42,285 nt of DNA from a virus, in IMG/VR virus record IMGVR_UViG_3300025286_000035, positions 1 through 42,285 of that record. One strand, given 5' to 3'. The position numbers and the translations under genes were made by a program. The notes beneath the pieces are model-generated. The model did not search any database and was not told the origin of the DNA. It was given only the letters and a program-made list of their open reading frames with translations. Below, in pieces: positions 20,388 to 36,390 of the stretch. The stretch's first letter is position 1. Each line of letters starts with the position of its first letter.

Positions 20388-20690
20388 TTCAAAATACGCT
20401 GTGTAGAGGTCCTACATCTAGAAGGTCTCGGAGCGGGGATGCGGCCCAAGGTACCCAGCCCCCTTCGGGGGCTGACCCCTCGCGCGCGATCTATACTATC
20501 CGCGAACACCCCTGACTGCACTGACTGGCCAGTAGGTTTACCAGGTGAACACCCTGGACCAAACAAAAGCCACAAAGGGCCAACCATTACAGCACCTTGC
20601 GACCGATTGCCAACTAATTGAGCACCCCTATTCGCTGCACGTCGCGACATTTACACACCTAATCGCGTCTCTATTCGACACACTGCGCCA
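20388..20690. other. Gene-free stretch with one strong hairpin
   Basis: No convincing gene is seen here. Short frames exist but lack ribosome binding sites and known content. It contains the hairpin at 20456-20474 and an imperfect inverted repeat near 20540-20556 (CCAGGTG and CACCCTGG). It likely serves as a boundary between the first plus-strand gene and the regulatory region downstream. Confidence 0.5.
20456..20474 (+). terminator. Strong hairpin after the first plus-strand gene
   Basis: CAGCCCCC-TTC-GGGGGCTG makes an 8-bp perfect stem about 70 bases after the stop codon at 20387. No T-run follows, so it may be a Rho-type pause or an mRNA 3'-end stabiliser rather than a classic intrinsic terminator. 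Confidence 0.45.
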
Positions 20691-20878
20691 CATTCGCACC
20701 ATTCGCACCACTGCCTCACGTACACACAATCACAGGGCAGTACACCGTTTAACCCAAGATGCAAATCAGGTGCGAACTAGTGCGAATCAAGCGCAGTCTA
20801 CCGTTCTTAACGCGAATTCTAGTGCGAATCCAGACCAGTCCATCGTTTAGCCCACAATCACCAAACACCTATTCGCAT
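20691..20878. repeat. Iteron-like cluster of ATTCGCAC / GTGCGAAT
   Basis: The 8-mer ATTCGCAC occurs at 20692 and 20701 as a direct tandem of CATTCGCAC. Its complement GTGCGAAT occurs at 20780 and 20822, with GTGCGAAC at 20770 and ATTCGCAT at 20871. Six close copies in both orientations within 190 bp of gene-free DNA suggest binding sites for a replication initiator or a regulator. Location at the start of the early arm fits an origin, but no initiator gene is recognised. Confidence 0.55.
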
Positions 20879-20901
20879 CACTGCTCTGCATTGCTAAGTT
20901 A

Positions 20902-21051
20902 TTTTGTGTCAAATTTGCCACAAAAGTGTTCAGTTTCTGTACGATTTCCGTACAGTTGCTGTACAGTGCCACTTTTCCCGAGCAATTACCGTCACTTACT
21001 GGCCATTGTCCACAGCAAATCCTCAAAAGTGTACAATCGGTGGTCACTTTT
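20902..21051. promoter_or_regulatory. Operator-like palindromes (CTGTAC and AAAAGTG/CACTTTT families)
   Basis: Several inverted repeats lie close together: TTTTGTG (20902) with CACAAAA (20919); CTGTACG-ATTTC-CGTACAG (20937-20955); the palindrome CTGTACAG (20959-20966); and AAAAGTG/CACTTTT pairs at 20922/20970 and again at 21025/21045. Such nested palindromes upstream of an early gene block are typical of repressor or activator binding sites. The two XRE-type proteins at 27.2-27.7 kb are possible binders. No clear -35/-10 pair was found within it. Confidence 0.5.
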
Positions 21052-21206
21052 AGCAGCACCCGTTTCCGTGCCTTTTGCAGTGCAGTGCAGCGTTTAGCCA
21101 ACTTGGCATGCATCCTGCTATCTTCTTTGGCCGGAAACGATGAGCGCCAAGCTCGCAATTGCACACAGAGCCTTTGCGTGCGGCCAATGTTGCGGTAGGT
21201 CATTGA

Positions 21207-21770
21207 GTAGAGCTAGAAGAGTCTGGCTACCTATCGACAAGCTCAAAAGTAGGATCGGCATTGCCTATATCGCTTGCAAGGTACACTAACACCGCGTTGC
21301 TGGCTTGGCGTTCATCGTTTCCTGGTAAGACATAGGTTGTGGGCTAGGACAGTTTCGAGGGGAGCCTTGAAACAACGACCAGCACAACCCTGCAAACCAA
21401 TGGTGTGCCTTTAGGCACGCCAGCACAAGTGGTCCCTATGATACGACATTCCTTCGGGAGTGGGCTTCGATGCAGGAGCAGTTAGGGATCGATACTCTTC
21501 TGAGTAGCATAACCCAACATTGGTAAAGGCGTAGCTTTCAATGCAGCGCGCTTCCGTTATACCGATTCGTGGCACTGAGGCGATAGGACCTTTGCATCAC
21601 ACGGCTTTGTAGTAAGGCACGAAATAGTGGACTAGGGAAACGGACCATAGGGTGAGGCCGGGAAGAGTAGCGCGCCGCGTGTGAGTGTGAAATCAGGATA
21701 ACGAGGGCCTGTTTCGGCAGGAGTAACACTTATTGAGCGATGGTACGGGTGACGCCCTACGTCAAAGCAC
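21207..21770 (+). ncRNA. Candidate large structured RNA (multi-branched)
   Basis: No credible gene fits this 560-base stretch, but nested helices can be drawn by hand. A long-range helix joins 21230-21236 to 21581-21587. Inside it, 21335-21341 pairs with 21383-21389 around the hairpin 21352-21373 (9 bp, loop GGAG). Next to that, 21396-21401 pairs with 21519-21524 and encloses three arms: 21401-21422 (9 bp), 21431-21438/21483-21490 containing a C(UUCG)G tetraloop hairpin at 21448-21461, and 21493-21506. Mismatches in these helices are G-U only if the plus strand is the RNA. Giant phage RNAs such as GOLLD or ROOL are the obvious comparison; identity is untested. Confidence 0.6.
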
Positions 21771-21771
21771 A

Positions 21772-22058
21772 GGTGTTTTTGCCCCTCAACTTGTGGCCTC
21801 AGGCCGACAAGGAGAGACAAAATGGCGTATTCAAAACGACAATTAGCGAGAGCGTTTAAGGTTGGTGGCACACGTCGTCCAGCTAAGAAACAACGAATTG
21901 CACAGTCGTTCTCTGCTGCGAAGCGGGGTTCGGGGTCAAACAAACCAAGACGAGTTCCAAGTAAATCCGAAGGTAATGGCATGTCTTACAACAAGTCAGA
22001 CTGCGGGCGAAAGAAACAATAGATTACTTGGGGCTGCAAGTTGAGGGGCAGAGACACC
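21772..22058 (+). promoter_or_regulatory. 32-bp long-range helix enclosing a small gene
   Basis: Bases 21772-21803 can pair without interruption with 22027-22058: 26 Watson-Crick and six G-U pairs, including a perfect 14-bp core (TGCCCCTCAACTTG with its complement). The loop holds exactly the ribosome binding site and the 66-residue gene: the 5' arm ends 18 bases before the ATG and the 3' arm begins four bases after the stop. A competing local hairpin (21790-21811, CTTGTGGCC-TCA-GGCC-ACAAG) would cover half of the Shine-Dalgarno AAGGAG. The two folds are mutually exclusive, which suggests a translation switch or a protected mRNA. Confidence 0.7.
21822..22022 (+). CDS. Small, highly basic protein inside the long-range stem-loop
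   Basis: The 66-residue product is rich in Lys, Arg, Ser and Gly with few acids (for example MAYSKRQLARAFKVGGTRRP and the end SDCGRKKQ). It probably binds nucleic acid and is partly disordered. The ribosome binding site AAGGAGAGACAAA is strong. The gene is enclosed by the 32-bp inverted complementarity and directly follows the structured RNA, so the protein could bind that RNA or regulate its own message. No family was recognised. Confidence 0.6.
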   Translation: MAYSKRQLARAFKVGGTRRPAKKQRIAQSFSAAKRGSGSNKPRRVPSKSEGNGMSYNKSDCGRKKQ

Positions 22059-22070
22059 ATGCTTGCTTGT

Positions 22071-22113
22071 CCTCTCTTCGGTGACGGTCATGTTGACCAT
22101 CACAGAAAAGAGG
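22071..22113 (+). promoter_or_regulatory. Leader hairpin reaching the ribosome binding site of the next micro-gene
   Basis: GTGACGGTCA pairs with TGACCATCAC (9 pairs, one C-A mismatch, loop TGT). CCTCT at 22071 can pair with AGAGG at 22109, which is the Shine-Dalgarno for the ATG at 22123. The fold would hold the start site closed until melted or bound. Confidence 0.5.
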
Positions 22114-22122
22114 AAAGACAAA

Positions 22123-22197
22123 ATGAATCCAGACAGAAGTACTGTGGTTCCATTGCCTTCACCATGCAGGGAGGAGGAAAAATGGCACGACAGATAA
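22123..22197 (+). CDS. 24-residue micro-protein
   Basis: ATG 22123 follows AGAGGAAAGACAAA, nearly the same initiation context as the gene at 21822. The product (begins MNPDRSTVVPLPSP) has no recognisable domain. Its last 16 bases overlap the start of the next gene, whose GGGAGGAGGAAAA site lies inside this frame. It may be a leader peptide whose translation opens the downstream start. Confidence 0.35.
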   Translation: MNPDRSTVVPLPSPCREEEKWHDR

Positions 22198-22301
22198 ACA
22201 GGCCACGTAAGGTGACATCGCTTTTTAGTGGTCGCTGTGAGTTTACTACGGTCCGACGTCGCAAGAAAGGCGACACGGGACGCGGTGTGGCGGTAGCGTA
22301 A
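22182..22301 (+). CDS. 39-residue basic protein
   Basis: The start at ATG 22182 is preferred over longer frames because GGGAGGAGG lies at the right distance. The product begins MARQINRPRKVTSLFSGRCE and continues with VRRRKKGDTGRG, so it is strongly basic and may bind nucleic acid. It overlaps the next micro-gene by one base (TAATG). No family was recognised. Confidence 0.5.
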   Translation: MARQINRPRKVTSLFSGRCEFTTVRRRKKGDTGRGVAVA

Positions 22302-22375
22302 TGGCAGTTATAATCCTGTCTACTTATGGTGCTCTGGTCATCACAGTGGTGTTTTGCAGCGCTGTGTTCTGTTAG
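22301..22375 (+). CDS. 24-residue hydrophobic peptide, single membrane span
   Basis: ATG 22301 overlaps the previous stop (TAATG), so translation is probably coupled. The product, MAVIILSTYGALVITVVFCS plus AVFC, is almost entirely hydrophobic and is the length of one membrane-spanning helix. Two Cys lie near the end. Such peptides in early phage regions can modulate membrane proteins or act as toxins. It could also be a chance frame, but the junction argues for a real gene. Confidence 0.4.
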   Translation: MAVIILSTYGALVITVVFCSAVFC

Positions 22376-22610
22376 CTCTGGTGTGATCCCCAGTCCTTGG
22401 AGGAGGGCTGGGGGTCAGCGAAGAGAGGACGAGCCTTTCTAATTTTTAACCGCATCGTGTCTCCATTGTGGGGCATGGGTTATGGGGTATCTGGGTAGGG
22501 TTCGAGTCCCTAGTGCCTATCGACACAAGCCAGGGCACTGGCAAGTGGCCATATAGCGATAGTGGCGCAACGCGTGATAGAGGTAGTTCAGGTATCACAG
22601 GCTAGCTGCC
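22376..22610 (+). other. Gene-free region with a series of hairpins, one tRNA T-arm-like
   Basis: Visible hairpins are: 22385-22416 (13 pairs, loop TGGAGG); 22496-22512, TAGGG-TTCGAGT-CCCTA, which has the stem length and loop sequence of a tRNA T-arm; 22529-22542, GCCAG-GGCA-CTGGC; about 22548-22566, GCCATAT with ATAGTGGC; and 22575-22599, GTGATA with TATCAC. I could not complete a tRNA cloverleaf around the T-arm. The first hairpin may be a weak terminator for the micro-genes. The rest could be a small structured RNA or leader. Confidence 0.5.
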
Positions 22611-22627
22611 CATGCCTCACAGTGGGG
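22611..22627 (+). repeat. 17-bp leader repeat, copy 1
   Basis: CATGCCTCACAGTGGGG is repeated exactly at 23392-23408. Both copies lie 20-50 bases before a gene start (22657 and 23431) and can form a small stem (CCTCA with TGGGG around CAG). The shared placement suggests a common regulator or RNA element. Confidence 0.75.
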
Positions 22628-22656
22628 GCACGATGCACGACAAAGTGAGGAAGAAA

Positions 22657-23291: not shown

Positions 23292-23430
23292 CTGGCGTCG
23301 AATAACGCTTTACGCTCACATGGGACTGAACATCCCCGTGAGCGTATGGAGTCATTCGACTCATATTCCTGATTGGACAAGCAAGCAGTGTCATGCCTCA
23401 CAGTGGGGACATGACACAAGGAGAATTGAT
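23292..23430 (+). promoter_or_regulatory. Structured leader before the DUF932-like gene
   Basis: Two hairpins follow one another: TACGCTCAC with GTGAGCGTA (23311-23346, 9 bp, GGG/CCC inside) and GAGTC-ATTC-GACTC (23349-23362). The second copy of the 17-bp leader repeat (23392-23408) comes next, then AAGGAGA before the GTG start at 23431. The order hairpin, repeat, ribosome binding site suggests post-transcriptional control. Confidence 0.5.
23392..23408 (+). repeat. 17-bp leader repeat, copy 2
   Basis: This is an exact match to 22611-22627. It is followed by ACATGACACAAGGAGA and the GTG start of the DUF932-like gene. Confidence 0.75.
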
Positions 23431-24258
23431 GTGAATGCAGCAGTATTAATGGGCGAAGGTAATTGCGTGCGTCGTGAGGACCTGCACCTCATTCCAATGC
23501 CAGCAAACACGGCAACGTGCGCGCTGATGCCTTGGCAGTACTTCGTTGACACTATTTGTCACCGTATCGAACTGGCGGGTTGGTCTATAAAAGAGGTCAA
23601 GCTGCTTACGAGCGGTAAGAATAAGCAAACGGGCTGGGTGCAGGAACTCTTTGGGACGATAGTCCTTGAGCATTCTGATACCGAAGTCCAGCCATGCTTT
23701 GGCCTTAGGACGTCATACAACCACACGTACCTGTCGAGTCTAATCGCAGGGCTGACGGTTACTGCCTGTAGCAACGGGTGTTTTTCCGCTGACTATGGCG
23801 TGGCGTTCAAGAAGCAGCGCGCACTGGGAGGTAAGCGCAACGACGCTCTGTTTATCGAGAGACTGGAGACTGGAATCAGTCTTGTTGGTCGAGCTTTTGA
23901 CGGTATGCGGCGAAAGCGAGATTTCCTGAAGTCTGTCCCGCTGTCATTGAACCACGGTCACGCGCTTATTGGCATTGCGCAGGGCCATGGTGTCATCACT
24001 GACACAATGGGCAATGAAGCGAGACGGTGCTGGAACAAGCCAATTGAGTATCAGGTAAACGGTCTCACAGAGGCACCTTTTGCTGAACTCAACGCTTGGA
24101 GTCTTTACAACGGCTTCACTGAGGCCGCGAAGAAAACCCGAGCGGGTAATCTTTTGGATGCCCACACAAAGATAGATGCGTATTTTTCAGACAGCCACAT
24201 TATCCCAGCCGCAGCAAGTGTCTGGGACGAGGGTGGTTCAGAGGTAATCCCGTTCTAA
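23431..24258 (+). CDS. DUF932-like phage protein
   Basis: I choose GTG 23431, seven bases after AAGGAGA; longer frames run through the leader hairpins. The 275-residue protein has a central segment, FGLRTSYNHTYLSSLIAGLT followed by VTACSNGCFSADYGVAFKKQ, that resembles the conserved core of DUF932 proteins of phages and plasmids (a dgs.a and V.CsN pattern). Near the C-terminus are AWSLYNGFTEAAKK and a final WDEGGSEVIPF. The biochemical role of DUF932 is not established; it is usually found in early phage or plasmid regions. It is one of the largest early genes here. Confidence 0.6.
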   Translation: MNAAVLMGEGNCVRREDLHLIPMPANTATCALMPWQYFVDTICHRIELAGWSIKEVKLLTSGKNKQTGWVQELFGTIVLEHSDTEVQPCFGLRTSYNHTYLSSLIAGLTVTACSNGCFSADYGVAFKKQRALGGKRNDALFIERLETGISLVGRAFDGMRRKRDFLKSVPLSLNHGHALIGIAQGHGVITDTMGNEARRCWNKPIEYQVNGLTEAPFAELNAWSLYNGFTEAAKKTRAGNLLDAHTKIDAYFSDSHIIPAAASVWDEGGSEVIPF

Positions 24259-24278
24259 ACGGGGAAGAGAGGACAAGA

Positions 24279-24716: not shown

Positions 24717-24895
24717 TGCCTGAGACAGATGAGCAGGTAGTCAAAAGACTGTTGGAGGCCATCCGGCTTCACAGGGAAGAGTATATCCAAGGCAAACTGG
24801 ATTCACTGACGTGGGTTCGAGCGCACAGGATGGTCATAAGGGAAGCCGAGTTTCTTGGCGTCACTGACCTGATGCTGCAAAGGGGGGACAAGTGA
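24716..24895 (+). CDS. Small helical protein, 59 residues
   Basis: The ATG overlaps the previous stop (TAATG). The product is charged and helical (VVKRLLEAIRLHREEYIQGK and TWVRAHRMVIREAEFLG). It shares a GTGA overlap with the next gene. Function is unknown. Confidence 0.5.
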   Translation: MPETDEQVVKRLLEAIRLHREEYIQGKLDSLTWVRAHRMVIREAEFLGVTDLMLQRGDK

Positions 24896-25047
24896 GTAGA
24901 GACGGAACGCTACCGCCCGGTGTGGAACACTGTGACATACCAGGCGAGAGCGATGGAGGACACCGGGATGACTGCTGCACCGTGGTCAACAGCCATTGGC
25001 AGAGTCCAAGGTGTAACTGTAGCGAACTAGATGAGGAGGACGGATGA
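24892..25047 (+). CDS. Cys-rich small protein, 51 residues
   Basis: The frame starts at GTG in a GTGA overlap after GGGGGGACAA. Cys and His are placed as HCDIP, HRDDCCT and RCNCSE, which could bind a metal. It is followed by an ATGA overlap with the next gene. Both junctions support it as real, although the start codon is weak. Confidence 0.45.
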   Translation: MSRDGTLPPGVEHCDIPGESDGGHRDDCCTVVNSHWQSPRCNCSELDEEDG

Positions 25048-25217
25048 GAGCACATAGCGGCTGTTGCCTGAACTATAACCACAGCAAGGAAATGCTGCAC
25101 GAGCGAGCGTTCAACAGCATGAACGGGCCAGGAAGGGCTCACGTGTGGGGCGGGCCGTATATCCCGCCGAAATACGAATGCGTCTGCAAGACAAAGGAGG
25201 ACAAGCAAAACAAATGA
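25044..25217 (+). CDS. Cys/His-containing small protein, 57 residues
   Basis: ATGA overlaps join it to the genes on both sides. The product has SGCCLNYNHSKEMLHE and a C-terminal PPKYECVCKTK, so Cys pairs and His could form a zinc site. The DNA for the C-terminal part is duplicated at 25824-25866. Confidence 0.5.
   Translation: MRAHSGCCLNYNHSKEMLHERAFNSMNGPGRAHVWGGPYIPPKYECVCKTKEDKQNK
25153..25195 (+). repeat. 43-bp direct repeat, copy 1 (coding)
   Basis: It is identical to 25824-25866. This copy encodes GPYIPPKYECVCKTK at the end of the 57-residue protein and is followed by the ribosome binding site of the next gene. Confidence 0.95.
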
Positions 25218-26990: not shown

Positions 26991-27212
26991 ATGGCACCGA
27001 AGTTTATAGTTGAGTTTAGCTCGGGCCACTACAGGCAAATAGACGTGGAGGCCGAAGACCAGGGCGATGCGGTAAAGGAAGCGCTCGGCACCGACGACCA
27101 CCTCCCCCTTTGGGCGGTGCATGAAGACCCAAGCTACCCAGGCTGGCAGGAGCTTTGCATCCGAGTCAGTCCCGTGCAGGATGAGGACGAGGAAGATGTT
27201 GACAAAAACTAA
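26991..27212 (+). CDS. Small acidic hypothetical protein, 73 residues
   Basis: It starts immediately after the preceding stop (TAGATG). The N-terminal strand pattern, FIVEFSSGHYRQIDVEAEDQ followed by DAVKEAL, resembles small beta-grasp or ferredoxin-like folds. The C-terminus is very acidic (DEDEEDVDKN). No family was recognised. The candidate promoter for the regulator genes overlaps its end. Confidence 0.55.
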   Translation: MAPKFIVEFSSGHYRQIDVEAEDQGDAVKEALGTDDHLPLWAVHEDPSYPGWQELCIRVSPVQDEDEEDVDKN

Positions 27213-29509: not shown

Positions 29510-29984
29510 CAGTTTTGATTGGAGCAAGATAGATAAAAGCTGGGGCGAGGCTGCCTCCGGGGACAAGGGCTCTGCCAGCAAGGGCGTGTTCGACACAGTG
29601 CCGGACGGACCTTATTCGGTGGTGATTGACAAGGCTGAGTTCAAGAACTCCAAGGCAGGTAACCCGTACCTGAACCTGGTTCTGGTTGTGCAGTCTGGCC
29701 CTCACGAGGGACGCTGGTTGTTCAAGCGGTGCATGCTATCCACATCCCAGAACATGACCTTCCTGAAGAAGGACCTGGCCGTGTGTGGCGTGAAGGTACC
29801 TGAGCGTATCAGCGAACTGAACCTTGAGTCACTGCTTGATCGCAAGCTGAAGGTAACGAAGAAGACGAAGGATGACTTCGAGAACATCTACTTCGATAAC
29901 CTTATCGAGAGCTTTGACATGACCCCGAAGCAAGGGGCCACTGACCTTGCTAAGAGGCTCAGTGACGAGGACATACCGTTTTAG
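29502..29984 (+). CDS. SSB-like protein with acidic C-terminal tail
   Basis: The 160-residue protein starts at ATG 29502 after AAAAGGAGACAAG, overlapping the Sak4 stop. It resembles phage DUF669-type proteins: DGPYSVVIDKAEFKNSKAGN, LNLVLVVQSGPHEGRWLFKR and KLKVTKKTKDDFENIYFDN, consistent with an OB fold. The C-terminus DEDIPF closely copies the acidic, Phe-ending tip of bacterial SSB that binds partner proteins. It likely protects ssDNA and recruits the neighbouring nuclease and ATPase. Confidence 0.78.
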   Translation: MSDSFDWSKIDKSWGEAASGDKGSASKGVFDTVPDGPYSVVIDKAEFKNSKAGNPYLNLVLVVQSGPHEGRWLFKRCMLSTSQNMTFLKKDLAVCGVKVPERISELNLESLLDRKLKVTKKTKDDFENIYFDNLIESFDMTPKQGATDLAKRLSDEDIPF

Positions 29985-29985
29985 T

Positions 29986-30324
29986 ATGGGTAAATCGCAA
30001 CGCGACAAAGGACATCGCTTCGAGCGTCAGGTGGCGGCAGATGCCACCGACGCTCTAGGCGAGAAGGTTCAACGTACCATCCAGTTCAGGGGCGGGCAGT
30101 CCGAGGGCTCTGATGTAGTGGTGGAGCCCTTCGCTATTGAATGCAAGCACTACAAAAAGCTCGGCGGTCTAATCAACAGAGCGTACGAGCAGGCCAAGCG
30201 TGATGCTAAGGATGGCTTCATACCCATCTGCATCTGCAAAGGAGATAGGCAGGAGCCGCTGGTCACGATGGGCTACAGGGATTTCTGGGAACTAATCAAA
30301 GAATGGAGGGAGAGAGGTGAGTGA
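29986..30324 (+). CDS. Holliday-junction-resolvase-like nuclease
   Basis: ATG 29986, one base after the preceding stop, is preferred over an upstream in-frame start inside the SSB gene. The 112-residue protein has KGHRFERQVAADATDALG, GSDVVVEPFAIECKHYKK and QAKRDAKDGFIPICICKG. That is a compact PD-(D/E)XK fold (E, D, E-x-K) like archaeal Hjc-type resolvases. It would cut branched DNA before packaging or during recombination. Confidence 0.75.
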   Translation: MGKSQRDKGHRFERQVAADATDALGEKVQRTIQFRGGQSEGSDVVVEPFAIECKHYKKLGGLINRAYEQAKRDAKDGFIPICICKGDRQEPLVTMGYRDFWELIKEWRERGE

Positions 30325-30802: not shown

Positions 30803-30985
30803 ATGTTTGAATGCCCGACGTGCGGTGCCCTTATGGAGGGCTCATGCAAGTATCGTGGTGGCAGGAAGCACGTAAAGAAATGCGAAGCTGCAACACCCGC
30901 GCAACGCAAATACTACAAGAGGACAGGGCACTGGCCCAAGAAAGGGAGGACAATTGCAGGCGATAGAAGCGAAGTATCAGTGTGA
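30803..30985 (+). CDS. Small zinc-binding protein, 60 residues
   Basis: It begins MFECPTCGALMEG and has CKYRGGRKHVKKCEA, so two Cys and then His/Cys could bind zinc. The C-terminus is basic (RKYYKRTGHWPKKGR). It overlaps the next gene, whose ribosome binding site lies inside this frame. Confidence 0.6.
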   Translation: MFECPTCGALMEGSCKYRGGRKHVKKCEAATPAQRKYYKRTGHWPKKGRTIAGDRSEVSV

Positions 30986-35276: not shown

Positions 35277-35590
35277 TACTTCTCCAGCTTCTTCAAGATT
35301 CGGTCCTGGTTTCTAATGATCGTGGTCTGGTTGGTCTCTATGCGGATGACAGTCGCTGTCGTTGAGTCCACCTTCTTCCGTAGTCGGTTGACCTTCTTGT
35401 CAGTAGAGTCGATGCGCTTGTGGATTCGGACATCTTCTTCTTGTAGGTCTACACGCTGTTCTGCCGCGCTCGCATTCTGGTGCTTGGCTTCTGATTTCAT
35501 CTCGCCAAGCTCGATTGAGCCGGTAACTAACCACACCAGCGCACCGATTACACCCACAACGACTGGCCAAAATTTGAGTAACTGCCTCAT
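35276..35590 (-). CDS. Spanin-like (Rz-type) inner-membrane coiled-coil protein
   Basis: The 104-residue protein has an N-terminal span (FWPVVVGVIGALVWLVTG, residues 7-24). A long charged coiled coil follows (EEDVRIHKRIDSTDKKVNRL to the end). This is the architecture of Rz inner-membrane spanins, which link to an outer-membrane lipoprotein and disrupt the outer membrane in lysis. It overlaps the endolysin by four bases and the holin-like gene by one. This supports a Gram-negative host. Confidence 0.6.
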   Translation of the reverse strand: MRQLLKFWPVVVGVIGALVWLVTGSIELGEMKSEAKHQNASAAEQRVDLQEEDVRIHKRIDSTDKKVNRLRKKVDSTTATVIRIETNQTTIIRNQDRILKKLEK

Positions 35591-36390
35591 GCATTCACCT
35601 TTAACTTGTCCAGTGAGCCCGCTTTCATTCGGTTGCGATCACACTTGCCTTCGATTCCAGCCACCTTGCCGCCGCCGGTCCACTGCCACACGTCCCACGC
35701 CCTCCACGGAGCGAGGTTCTTGGTCGGTGCTACGGTCTTTGCAGGTCTGTATTCAGCCCACCATAACGGGAACTCAGCCAAGCGGTCCAGCAATTCCCTG
35801 GACGCCCGTAAGATGCGGCTGGTTGAGGCCCAGCGTGCGGTGTAAATTATCGGCGTGACACCGAGGGCATCCTCGACAGTCGCTGCCCACTCAAGCACCC
35901 ACATCAGATTATAATCGTGGTCGTTCTTCAGCAGGCCCGATTCCAGGTCCAGCGCAGGCACCAAGTCATCTGGTTGGACGGTCCCGTAGCAGTCCAAGAA
36001 GTTCTTGGCTTCACGCCTGGCGTCTTCCATGTTCAGCCGCTGGTAAGTATCTGGTCTGGCGAAGTGATAGCCACCGACAGCGATGCCAGCGCCGCGAGCA
36101 CCATCCAGGTTCTGTTGGCGGCGTTTGTTCTTATGGGTGGTGCCCTCGGAGCACTTCACCCAGGCGAACTTTATCCCGGCGTTGGCCACCCTCTGCCAGT
36201 CCACCACACCCTGGTAGGAGGACACGTCCACACCCTCCAGATGTGCGGGTGCAATGGCCTCGACGTTGTTCCTCGTGGCAGCGTCTAGCGCGCGCCTGGT
36301 GCGCGGACCATATATGCCGTCCACCGGTCCTGGGTTGAAGTGCAAGTCAACAAGAAGTTGCTGCACCTTCCTGATGTCAGACGGGCTCAT
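35587..36390 (-). CDS. Endolysin: peptidoglycan-binding domain plus GH25 muramidase
   Basis: The 267-residue protein has an N-terminal peptidoglycan-binding domain (about 5-45, QQLLVDLHFNPGPVDGIYGP). A GH25 lysozyme domain follows, starting GVDVSSYQGVVDWQ with D55 and carrying the catalytic-type pair PALDLES (D148, E150). The end has WDVWQWTGGG, typical of GH25. It cleaves the glycan chain. No signal peptide is seen, so release would depend on the holin. It overlaps the upstream 37-residue gene by four bases. Confidence 0.9.
   Translation of the reverse strand: MSPSDIRKVQQLLVDLHFNPGPVDGIYGPRTRRALDAATRNNVEAIAPAHLEGVDVSSYQGVVDWQRVANAGIKFAWVKCSEGTTHKNKRRQQNLDGARGAGIAVGGYHFARPDTYQRLNMEDARREAKNFLDCYGTVQPDDLVPALDLESGLLKNDHDYNLMWVLEWAATVEDALGVTPIIYTARWASTSRILRASRELLDRLAEFPLWWAEYRPAKTVAPTKNLAPWRAWDVWQWTGGGKVAGIEGKCDRNRMKAGSLDKLKVNA

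Follow-up and report, generated by a model that had tools for sequence, protein, structure and literature searches.

The window analysed here, that is, the whole stretch of DNA, is a complete virus record of 42,285 bases. It carries structural and packaging genes (portal, major head protein, terminase and a gene of internal-virion type), genes for replication and recombination (exonuclease, Sak4-type annealing protein, SSB and primase-helicase) and a likely endolysin. The best match of its terminase in INPHARED was less than 30% identical, and a close isolate is absent there. A nucleotide search of the phage collection with the window gave no matches, and the genome collection searched with its terminase yielded no relatives and therefore no clue to the host. 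Relatives, designated here by L numbers, were drawn from IMG/VR by way of the terminase, a phrog_2554 gene and the orphan gene immediately left of the gap described below. Judging by the type of records involved, a marine origin may be guessed. A 125-residue protein encoded at 29947-30324 (plus strand) is 96% identical in L013, a phage whose terminase is only 59% identical to that of the window; this points to unusual conservation or recent transfer. On the plus strand of the gap, the structured domains and small genes are arranged in a chain in the order D1, D2, spacer, D3 and D4 (Table 1).

Table 1. Positions of the features discussed, numbered from the first base of the window.
Feature	Position	Strand	Remarks
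Palindromic repeats CTGTAC...GTACAG	20928-20964	.	Read from the sequence; lie about 140-175 bp before the promoter match
Sigma-54-type promoter match TTGGCATGCATCCTGCT (-24/-12)	21103-21119	+	2 mismatches to YTGGCACGNNNNTTGCW
D1	21133-21322	+	26-pair helix 21133-21159/21296-21322 around a 136-nt loop region; z -4.58, 0/200 shuffles
D2	21323-21530	+	Array of hairpins, one of them C(UUCG)G, and a three-way junction; core of the first-pass annotation; z -3.45, 0/200 shuffles
Spacer without significant local structure	21531-21771	+	21530-21800, z +3.0
D3	21772-22058	+	Helix 21772-21803/22027-22058, encloses the first basic ORF; z -5.70, 0/200 shuffles
Basic 66-residue ORF	21822-22022	+	tblastn 42% to L033; alignment
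D4	22065-22434	+	Helix 22065-22085/22414-22434, 21 positions, encloses the second basic ORF and the hydrophobic peptide ORF; z -6.78, 0/100 shuffles
Basic 39-residue ORF (MARQINRPRKV...)	22182-22301	+	Inside D4
Hydrophobic peptide ORF, 24 residues	22301-22375	+	Sequence reading
GH25 lysozyme with peptidoglycan-binding domain	35587-36390	-	Likely endolysin

Our analysis revealed that the structured RNA is real, and that its boundaries and nature are unlike those first proposed. The first-pass annotation had drawn one large structured unit at 21207-21770. This interval did not exceed shuffled sequence (z -1.25, with 12 of 100 shuffles equally good), because its boundaries were wrong: they cut off the 26-pair helix at the 5' side and added about 240 unstructured bases. 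The stretch 21170-21800 gave a z of only -0.5, and 21530-21800 is less structured than its shuffles, all 100 of which folded at least as well. The hairpins, UUCG tetraloop and three-way junction of the original description were all recovered within D2, as hairpins at 21352-21373, 21401-21422, 21447-21462 (C-UUCG-G), 21464-21479 and 21493-21506. The junction is closed by 21430-21438/21483-21491, and most helices have pair probabilities of 0.85-1.0. In contrast, the long-distance helix said to close the structure has a sole candidate, 21184-21192/21515-21523, with arms about 340 bases apart. It is absent from the minimum-energy fold and would cross the far stronger closing helix of D1, which had been overlooked, has a mean pair probability of 0.98 and was also scored as an inverted repeat (I3). 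Folding models thus lend the D1-D2 core thermodynamic support.

The description of the stretch as non-coding held, since its longest stop-to-stop frame is 62-63 codons and comparison with about 145 fetched loci turned up no convincing relative for any frame, the best match covering 25 residues at E 0.012. The plus-strand assignment had been argued from imperfect pairs of the G-U type. Ten long helices hold 39 G-U and no A-C pairs on the plus strand, a count that is biased and supportive only, as the search behind most of these helices favoured G-U. D1-D2 folded with a z of -5.0 on the plus strand and -2.8 on the minus strand. A rough scan of the genome (12 shuffles per window) gave z values of -7.2, -8.6 and -6.4 for 400-base windows at 21131, 21731 and 22031, and a lowest value of -3.8 among 66 genome-wide windows. 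A structured plus-strand RNA at this place is well supported. No nucleotide homologues of the leader were found in phages or among the loci from the viral-collection scans, the D1-D2 core could be aligned with none of the relatives' leaders, and a 92%-identical relative, L002, stops at 20985, short of the RNA.

Beyond the spacer, the structure continues into protein-coding sequence. The D3 helix consists of 32 unbroken positions (26 Watson-Crick and 6 G-U pairs) and was equalled by none of 300 sequences in the helix shuffle test. The 66-residue basic protein enclosed by it is 42-44% identical to its L033 counterpart and more distantly related to those of L081 and L085, and no Pfam family was found for it; homology between this protein and the 39-residue basic ORF of D4 is not established. 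Short hydrophobic ORFs similar to that in D4 follow the basic ORF in several relatives. The small basic proteins probably bind RNA. In modelled transcripts lacking the 3' arm, the ribosome-binding site (RBS) was mostly paired in D3, D4 and L085, and it opened once the 3' arm was present, the unpaired value rising from 0.37 to 0.67 in D3, from 0.20 to 0.50 in D4 and from 0.25 to 0.48 in L085. The effect was reversed in L081 and L018, and no change was seen in L015, L017 and L019.

The region of the D4 5' arm, 22060-22085, has 12-19 bases of complementarity to sites located at or close to the starts of several downstream genes (23375-23387, 24264-24277, 24880-24898, 25196-25208 and 30942-30953), and L081 is similar. 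It may be a simple anti-Shine-Dalgarno tract or a multi-target antisense element; this complementarity carries little weight, because any anti-Shine-Dalgarno tract would have it. Hairpins with CAUGCC...GGCAUG-type stems also lie just 5' of downstream RBSs at 22609-22628 and 23389-23413 in the window and at about 4540-4566 in L081, and the genes preceded by them include the gene at 23431 and its L081 counterpart.

The equivalent gap in L003, L033, L081, L085, L015, L017, L018 and L019 also ends with a small basic ORF. L081 and L085 share PTGTH[VI]RKK as a C-terminal motif of the basic protein; for L003 and the L015 group kinship was judged by position and composition only. Pattern searches for the basic protein and the promoter recovered, among the relatives, only L081 and L085. 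The relatives' leaders, of about 180-470 nt, are wholly different from one another in length and sequence. Leader and basic ORF co-occur in the relatives read, and the relatives without the basic ORF (L013, L111/L142 and L120, and by reading L011 and L012) have no comparable leader.

A helix enclosing the ORF was found in eight modules in seven phages. It was matched by none of 300 shuffles in L081, L085, L015, L017, L018 and L019, of which the last four are mutually close and count as about one independent case; it is weak in L003 (6/300 shuffles), and none was found in L033 (99/300). Covariation, which had been proposed as a check on structured RNA, was found for the D4 helix only. Across the window, L085 and L081, compensatory changes occurred in 10 of 21 pairs (0/500 shuffles), and 98% of the cells of the alignment pair, with slid registers falling far short; this result rests on three sequences that are far apart and whose arms align without gaps. 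A few covarying pairs occur within the L015-type leader itself, which is not of the same family as that of the window; the covariance model built on its core recovered its own four members only. An additional weak match to this model in L018 (6170-6238) lies inside a small membrane-protein frame and was taken as chance. These relatives keep their ORF-wrapping stems while the letters change in step, indicating a real RNA architecture that is apparently undescribed.

Two further RNA features were observed in L018, both on its minus strand. At about 2415-2595, the leader carries an insert, relative to L017, whose terminal helix of 25 pairs encloses about 120 nt; its size is similar to that of D1 of the window. 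At 1272-1464, an RNA shaped like a tRNA has an acceptor stem, D and T arms and CCA, but its anticodon arm is longer by about 100 bases. With introns allowed, and only then, ARAGORN called it a tRNA-Met(cat) whose intron is 99 bases long; Rfam gave no match there, and the close relative L017 does not have this RNA.

The base of the D1 stem begins about 12 bases after the promoter match TTGGCATGCATCCTGCT, and the 5' end of the RNA is predicted at about 21128-21131. Sites with GG and GC at the -24/-12 spacing and consensus flanks occur at the same place in L081 (2970, 1 mismatch), L085 (7197, 2 mismatches) and L003 (1817 on the other strand of the stored locus, 1 mismatch). Over nine loci, 14 such sites lie in 9.6 kb of gap (RNA strand) versus 13 in 269 kb elsewhere, a 30-fold enrichment in which some of the 13 are gap sequence on the opposite strand. 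The sigma-54-like sites of L015, L017, L018 and L019 are farther upstream of the RNA, and no such site was found in L033. No sigma-70 promoter near the leader rose above shuffles. The sigma-54-type match is the best promoter candidate, and transcription would depend on RpoN (sigma-54) and on an enhancer-binding activator if the motif is read correctly. Another sigma-54-like match, at 27143, lies inside an open frame and was attributed to chance.

Activators of sigma-54 bind upstream of the promoter, at the distance range of the palindromes that occur 50-175 bp upstream of the match in the window and L085. These palindromes may be activator sites, which is only suggestive. The gap in which GC skew switches sign contains, at 20620-20880 of the window, repeats of the words ATTCGCAC/GTGCGAAT running in either direction; these are possibly iterons of a replication origin. 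TGCGAA words similar to these repeats were seen in the corresponding gap of L003 and L081. Other repeat sets (CCATATATGGCA; TGGAGTA...TACTCCA) occupy this gap upstream of the promoter match in L085 (6600-6760 and 7030-7150) and L081 (2660-2800).

The explanation we favour, to which we give about an even chance, is that of a cis-acting leader followed by RNA for processing or translation control in an operon of small basic proteins, and not that of a stand-alone RNA like GOLLD or ROOL. The plus strand would be transcribed from about 21128 off the sigma-54-type promoter into a polycistronic mRNA. The 5' leader of this mRNA, structured and about 650 nt long (D1, D2 and the spacer), would act in cis, as would the long-range stems D3 and D4 in which the first small genes are each sealed. 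As processing stalks, D3 and D4 could, by analogy, be cut by RNase III to yield a separate leader RNA and short mRNAs whose ends are paired. As switches, their pyrimidine-rich 5' arms would cover the RBS until the 3' arm is made and captures the 5' arm. The two mechanisms are non-exclusive; processing is the reading that applies more widely, since the RBS switch is not general across relatives. Expression of the small basic proteins would then be set by RNA structure, with the leader perhaps left as a cut-off RNA, and the basic proteins, if they bind RNA, could act back on the leader.

Our computations established the helices and ORFs, the compensatory changes of D4, the promoter match and the gene order held in common. 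The cis-acting reading draws on the findings that D1, D2, D3 and D4 each beat all shuffles, that the helix recurs in relatives with compensatory pairs, that the promoter match lies at the 5' edge of D1 and that the basic ORF is conserved beside the leader, no comparable leader occurring without it. Counting against it are the leader core, which aligns with no relative, L033, which has neither helix nor promoter match, the weak helix of L003, the limited occurrence of the RBS switch and the more distant sigma-54-like sites of L015, L017, L018 and L019. A further proposal, which we hold only tentatively, is that of a hitherto undescribed type of phage RNA operon, a sigma-54-driven, fast-evolving ornate leader with tandem sealed basic-protein ORFs, in which the stem is kept while the sequence is replaced, and protein and leader form an RNP or feedback pair.

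Several other explanations were weighed against the cis-acting leader. D1-D2 could be a discrete trans-acting RNA of 0.4-0.65 kb, alone or bound by the adjacent basic protein. Its compact significant fold, the co-occurrence of leader and basic ORF, and the abundant non-coding RNA of comparable length (about 800 nt) in ICP1 (PMC7567579) are consistent with this idea. However, no intrinsic terminator near the leader or after D2 exceeds shuffles, significant structure extends into the ORFs, and the wholly different leaders of the relatives hold no conserved core of the kind seen in the GOLLD 3' region, so that we consider a stand-alone RNA rather unlikely. It is improbable that the locus is a translation switch only, in which the 5' arms are anti-Shine-Dalgarno elements that silence the gene until the 3' arm has been synthesised and D1-D2 is merely a protective 5' structure. 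The modelled opening of the RBS in D3, D4 and L085 and the complementarity of the D4 5' arm to several RBSs of the operon agree with such a switch, but the opening is not general across relatives, and the complementarity is a property of any anti-Shine-Dalgarno tract.

The inverted repeats might instead act as DNA, as parts of a replication origin or as a MITE-like hairpin insert beside the repeats at 20620-20880. The change in sign of GC skew at about 21 kb, the short direct and inverted repeats in the gap and the 25-pair hairpin block of L018, missing from its close relative L017, would fit. Yet the skew change coincides with a switch in gene direction, the helix arms lie 220-330 bases apart around ORFs, the imperfect pairs are G-U and not A-C (in a search biased towards G-U), and D1-D2 folds better on the plus strand; a role as DNA is accordingly quite improbable in our view. 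Chance folding of an intergenic gap balanced in AT and GC would explain why 21207-21770 did not exceed shuffles, but the correctly bounded domains beat all shuffles. It is already disfavoured for D4, whose helix is maintained by compensatory changes, and is highly improbable for the locus.

If confirmed, the preferred reading, a cis-acting leader and gene-enclosing stems, would mean that, in a group of uncultured phages, a sigma-54-type promoter and a large structured leader precede whole small genes wrapped in stems that are conserved in their pairing and not in their letters. A limited literature search found no report of phages using a sigma-54-type promoter in this way. It would also tie a fast-evolving ornate RNA to the neighbouring basic protein in a way open to testing, which bears on the purpose of large phage RNAs.

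With respect to known families, Rfam models (GOLLD, ROOL, OLE, HEARO and others) gave no matches at the gathering score in the whole window or in eight relatives, and permissive scans of the region and two homologous gaps gave only chance-level matches. The RNA thus matches no described family, and the likeness to GOLLD and ROOL suggested at first is limited to size and phage setting. A homo-oligomeric nanocage is a further mark of GOLLD and ROOL. GOLLD and ROOL often, though not strictly, lie near tRNA genes, and a T-arm-like hairpin at 22496-22514 had been offered as a link to them. No cloverleaf surrounds this hairpin, neither an acceptor nor a D arm lies at the proper distance from it, and ARAGORN found no tRNA or tmRNA in the window, even with introns allowed. 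The window shares with GOLLD and ROOL a large structured non-coding phage stretch with a complex multi-hairpin fold, but differs in having neither a model match nor a tRNA island, in an RNA that runs on into stem-enclosed ORFs and in the lack of a conserved sequence core among relatives (PMC12286853). Since the RNA is continuous with small ORFs inside further helices, it looks like an operon leader and not a discrete ornate RNA. Vibrio phage ICP1 likewise has a long ORF-free stretch of comparable length with no tRNAs nearby; its abundant RNA was shown by RNA-seq, whereas that of the window is predicted by computation and gave no match in the phage-collection search (PMC7567579).

The stems themselves resemble other systems. 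Long helices join the flanks of a transcript segment in rRNA processing stalks and T7 RNase III sites. The D3- and D4-type helices bring flanking sequences together in the same manner and, at 21-32 positions, are long enough for an RNase III stalk, but the enclosed segment is a small protein gene, and cutting by RNase III is proposed here by analogy. In hok-type mRNAs, too, the sequences on either side of a short ORF pair with each other, and an element on the 5' side has an alternative pairing close to the RBS. No antisense RNA as in those systems was seen here, and the proteins are basic and not membrane toxins, yet a hydrophobic peptide ORF follows in D4. No description of such an architecture was found in the open-licence papers searched. 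Precedents exist for large phage RNAs, for processing stalks and for long-range pairing in mRNA. To our knowledge, it is new to find these combined with sealed basic-protein genes and a promoter of the sigma-54 type.
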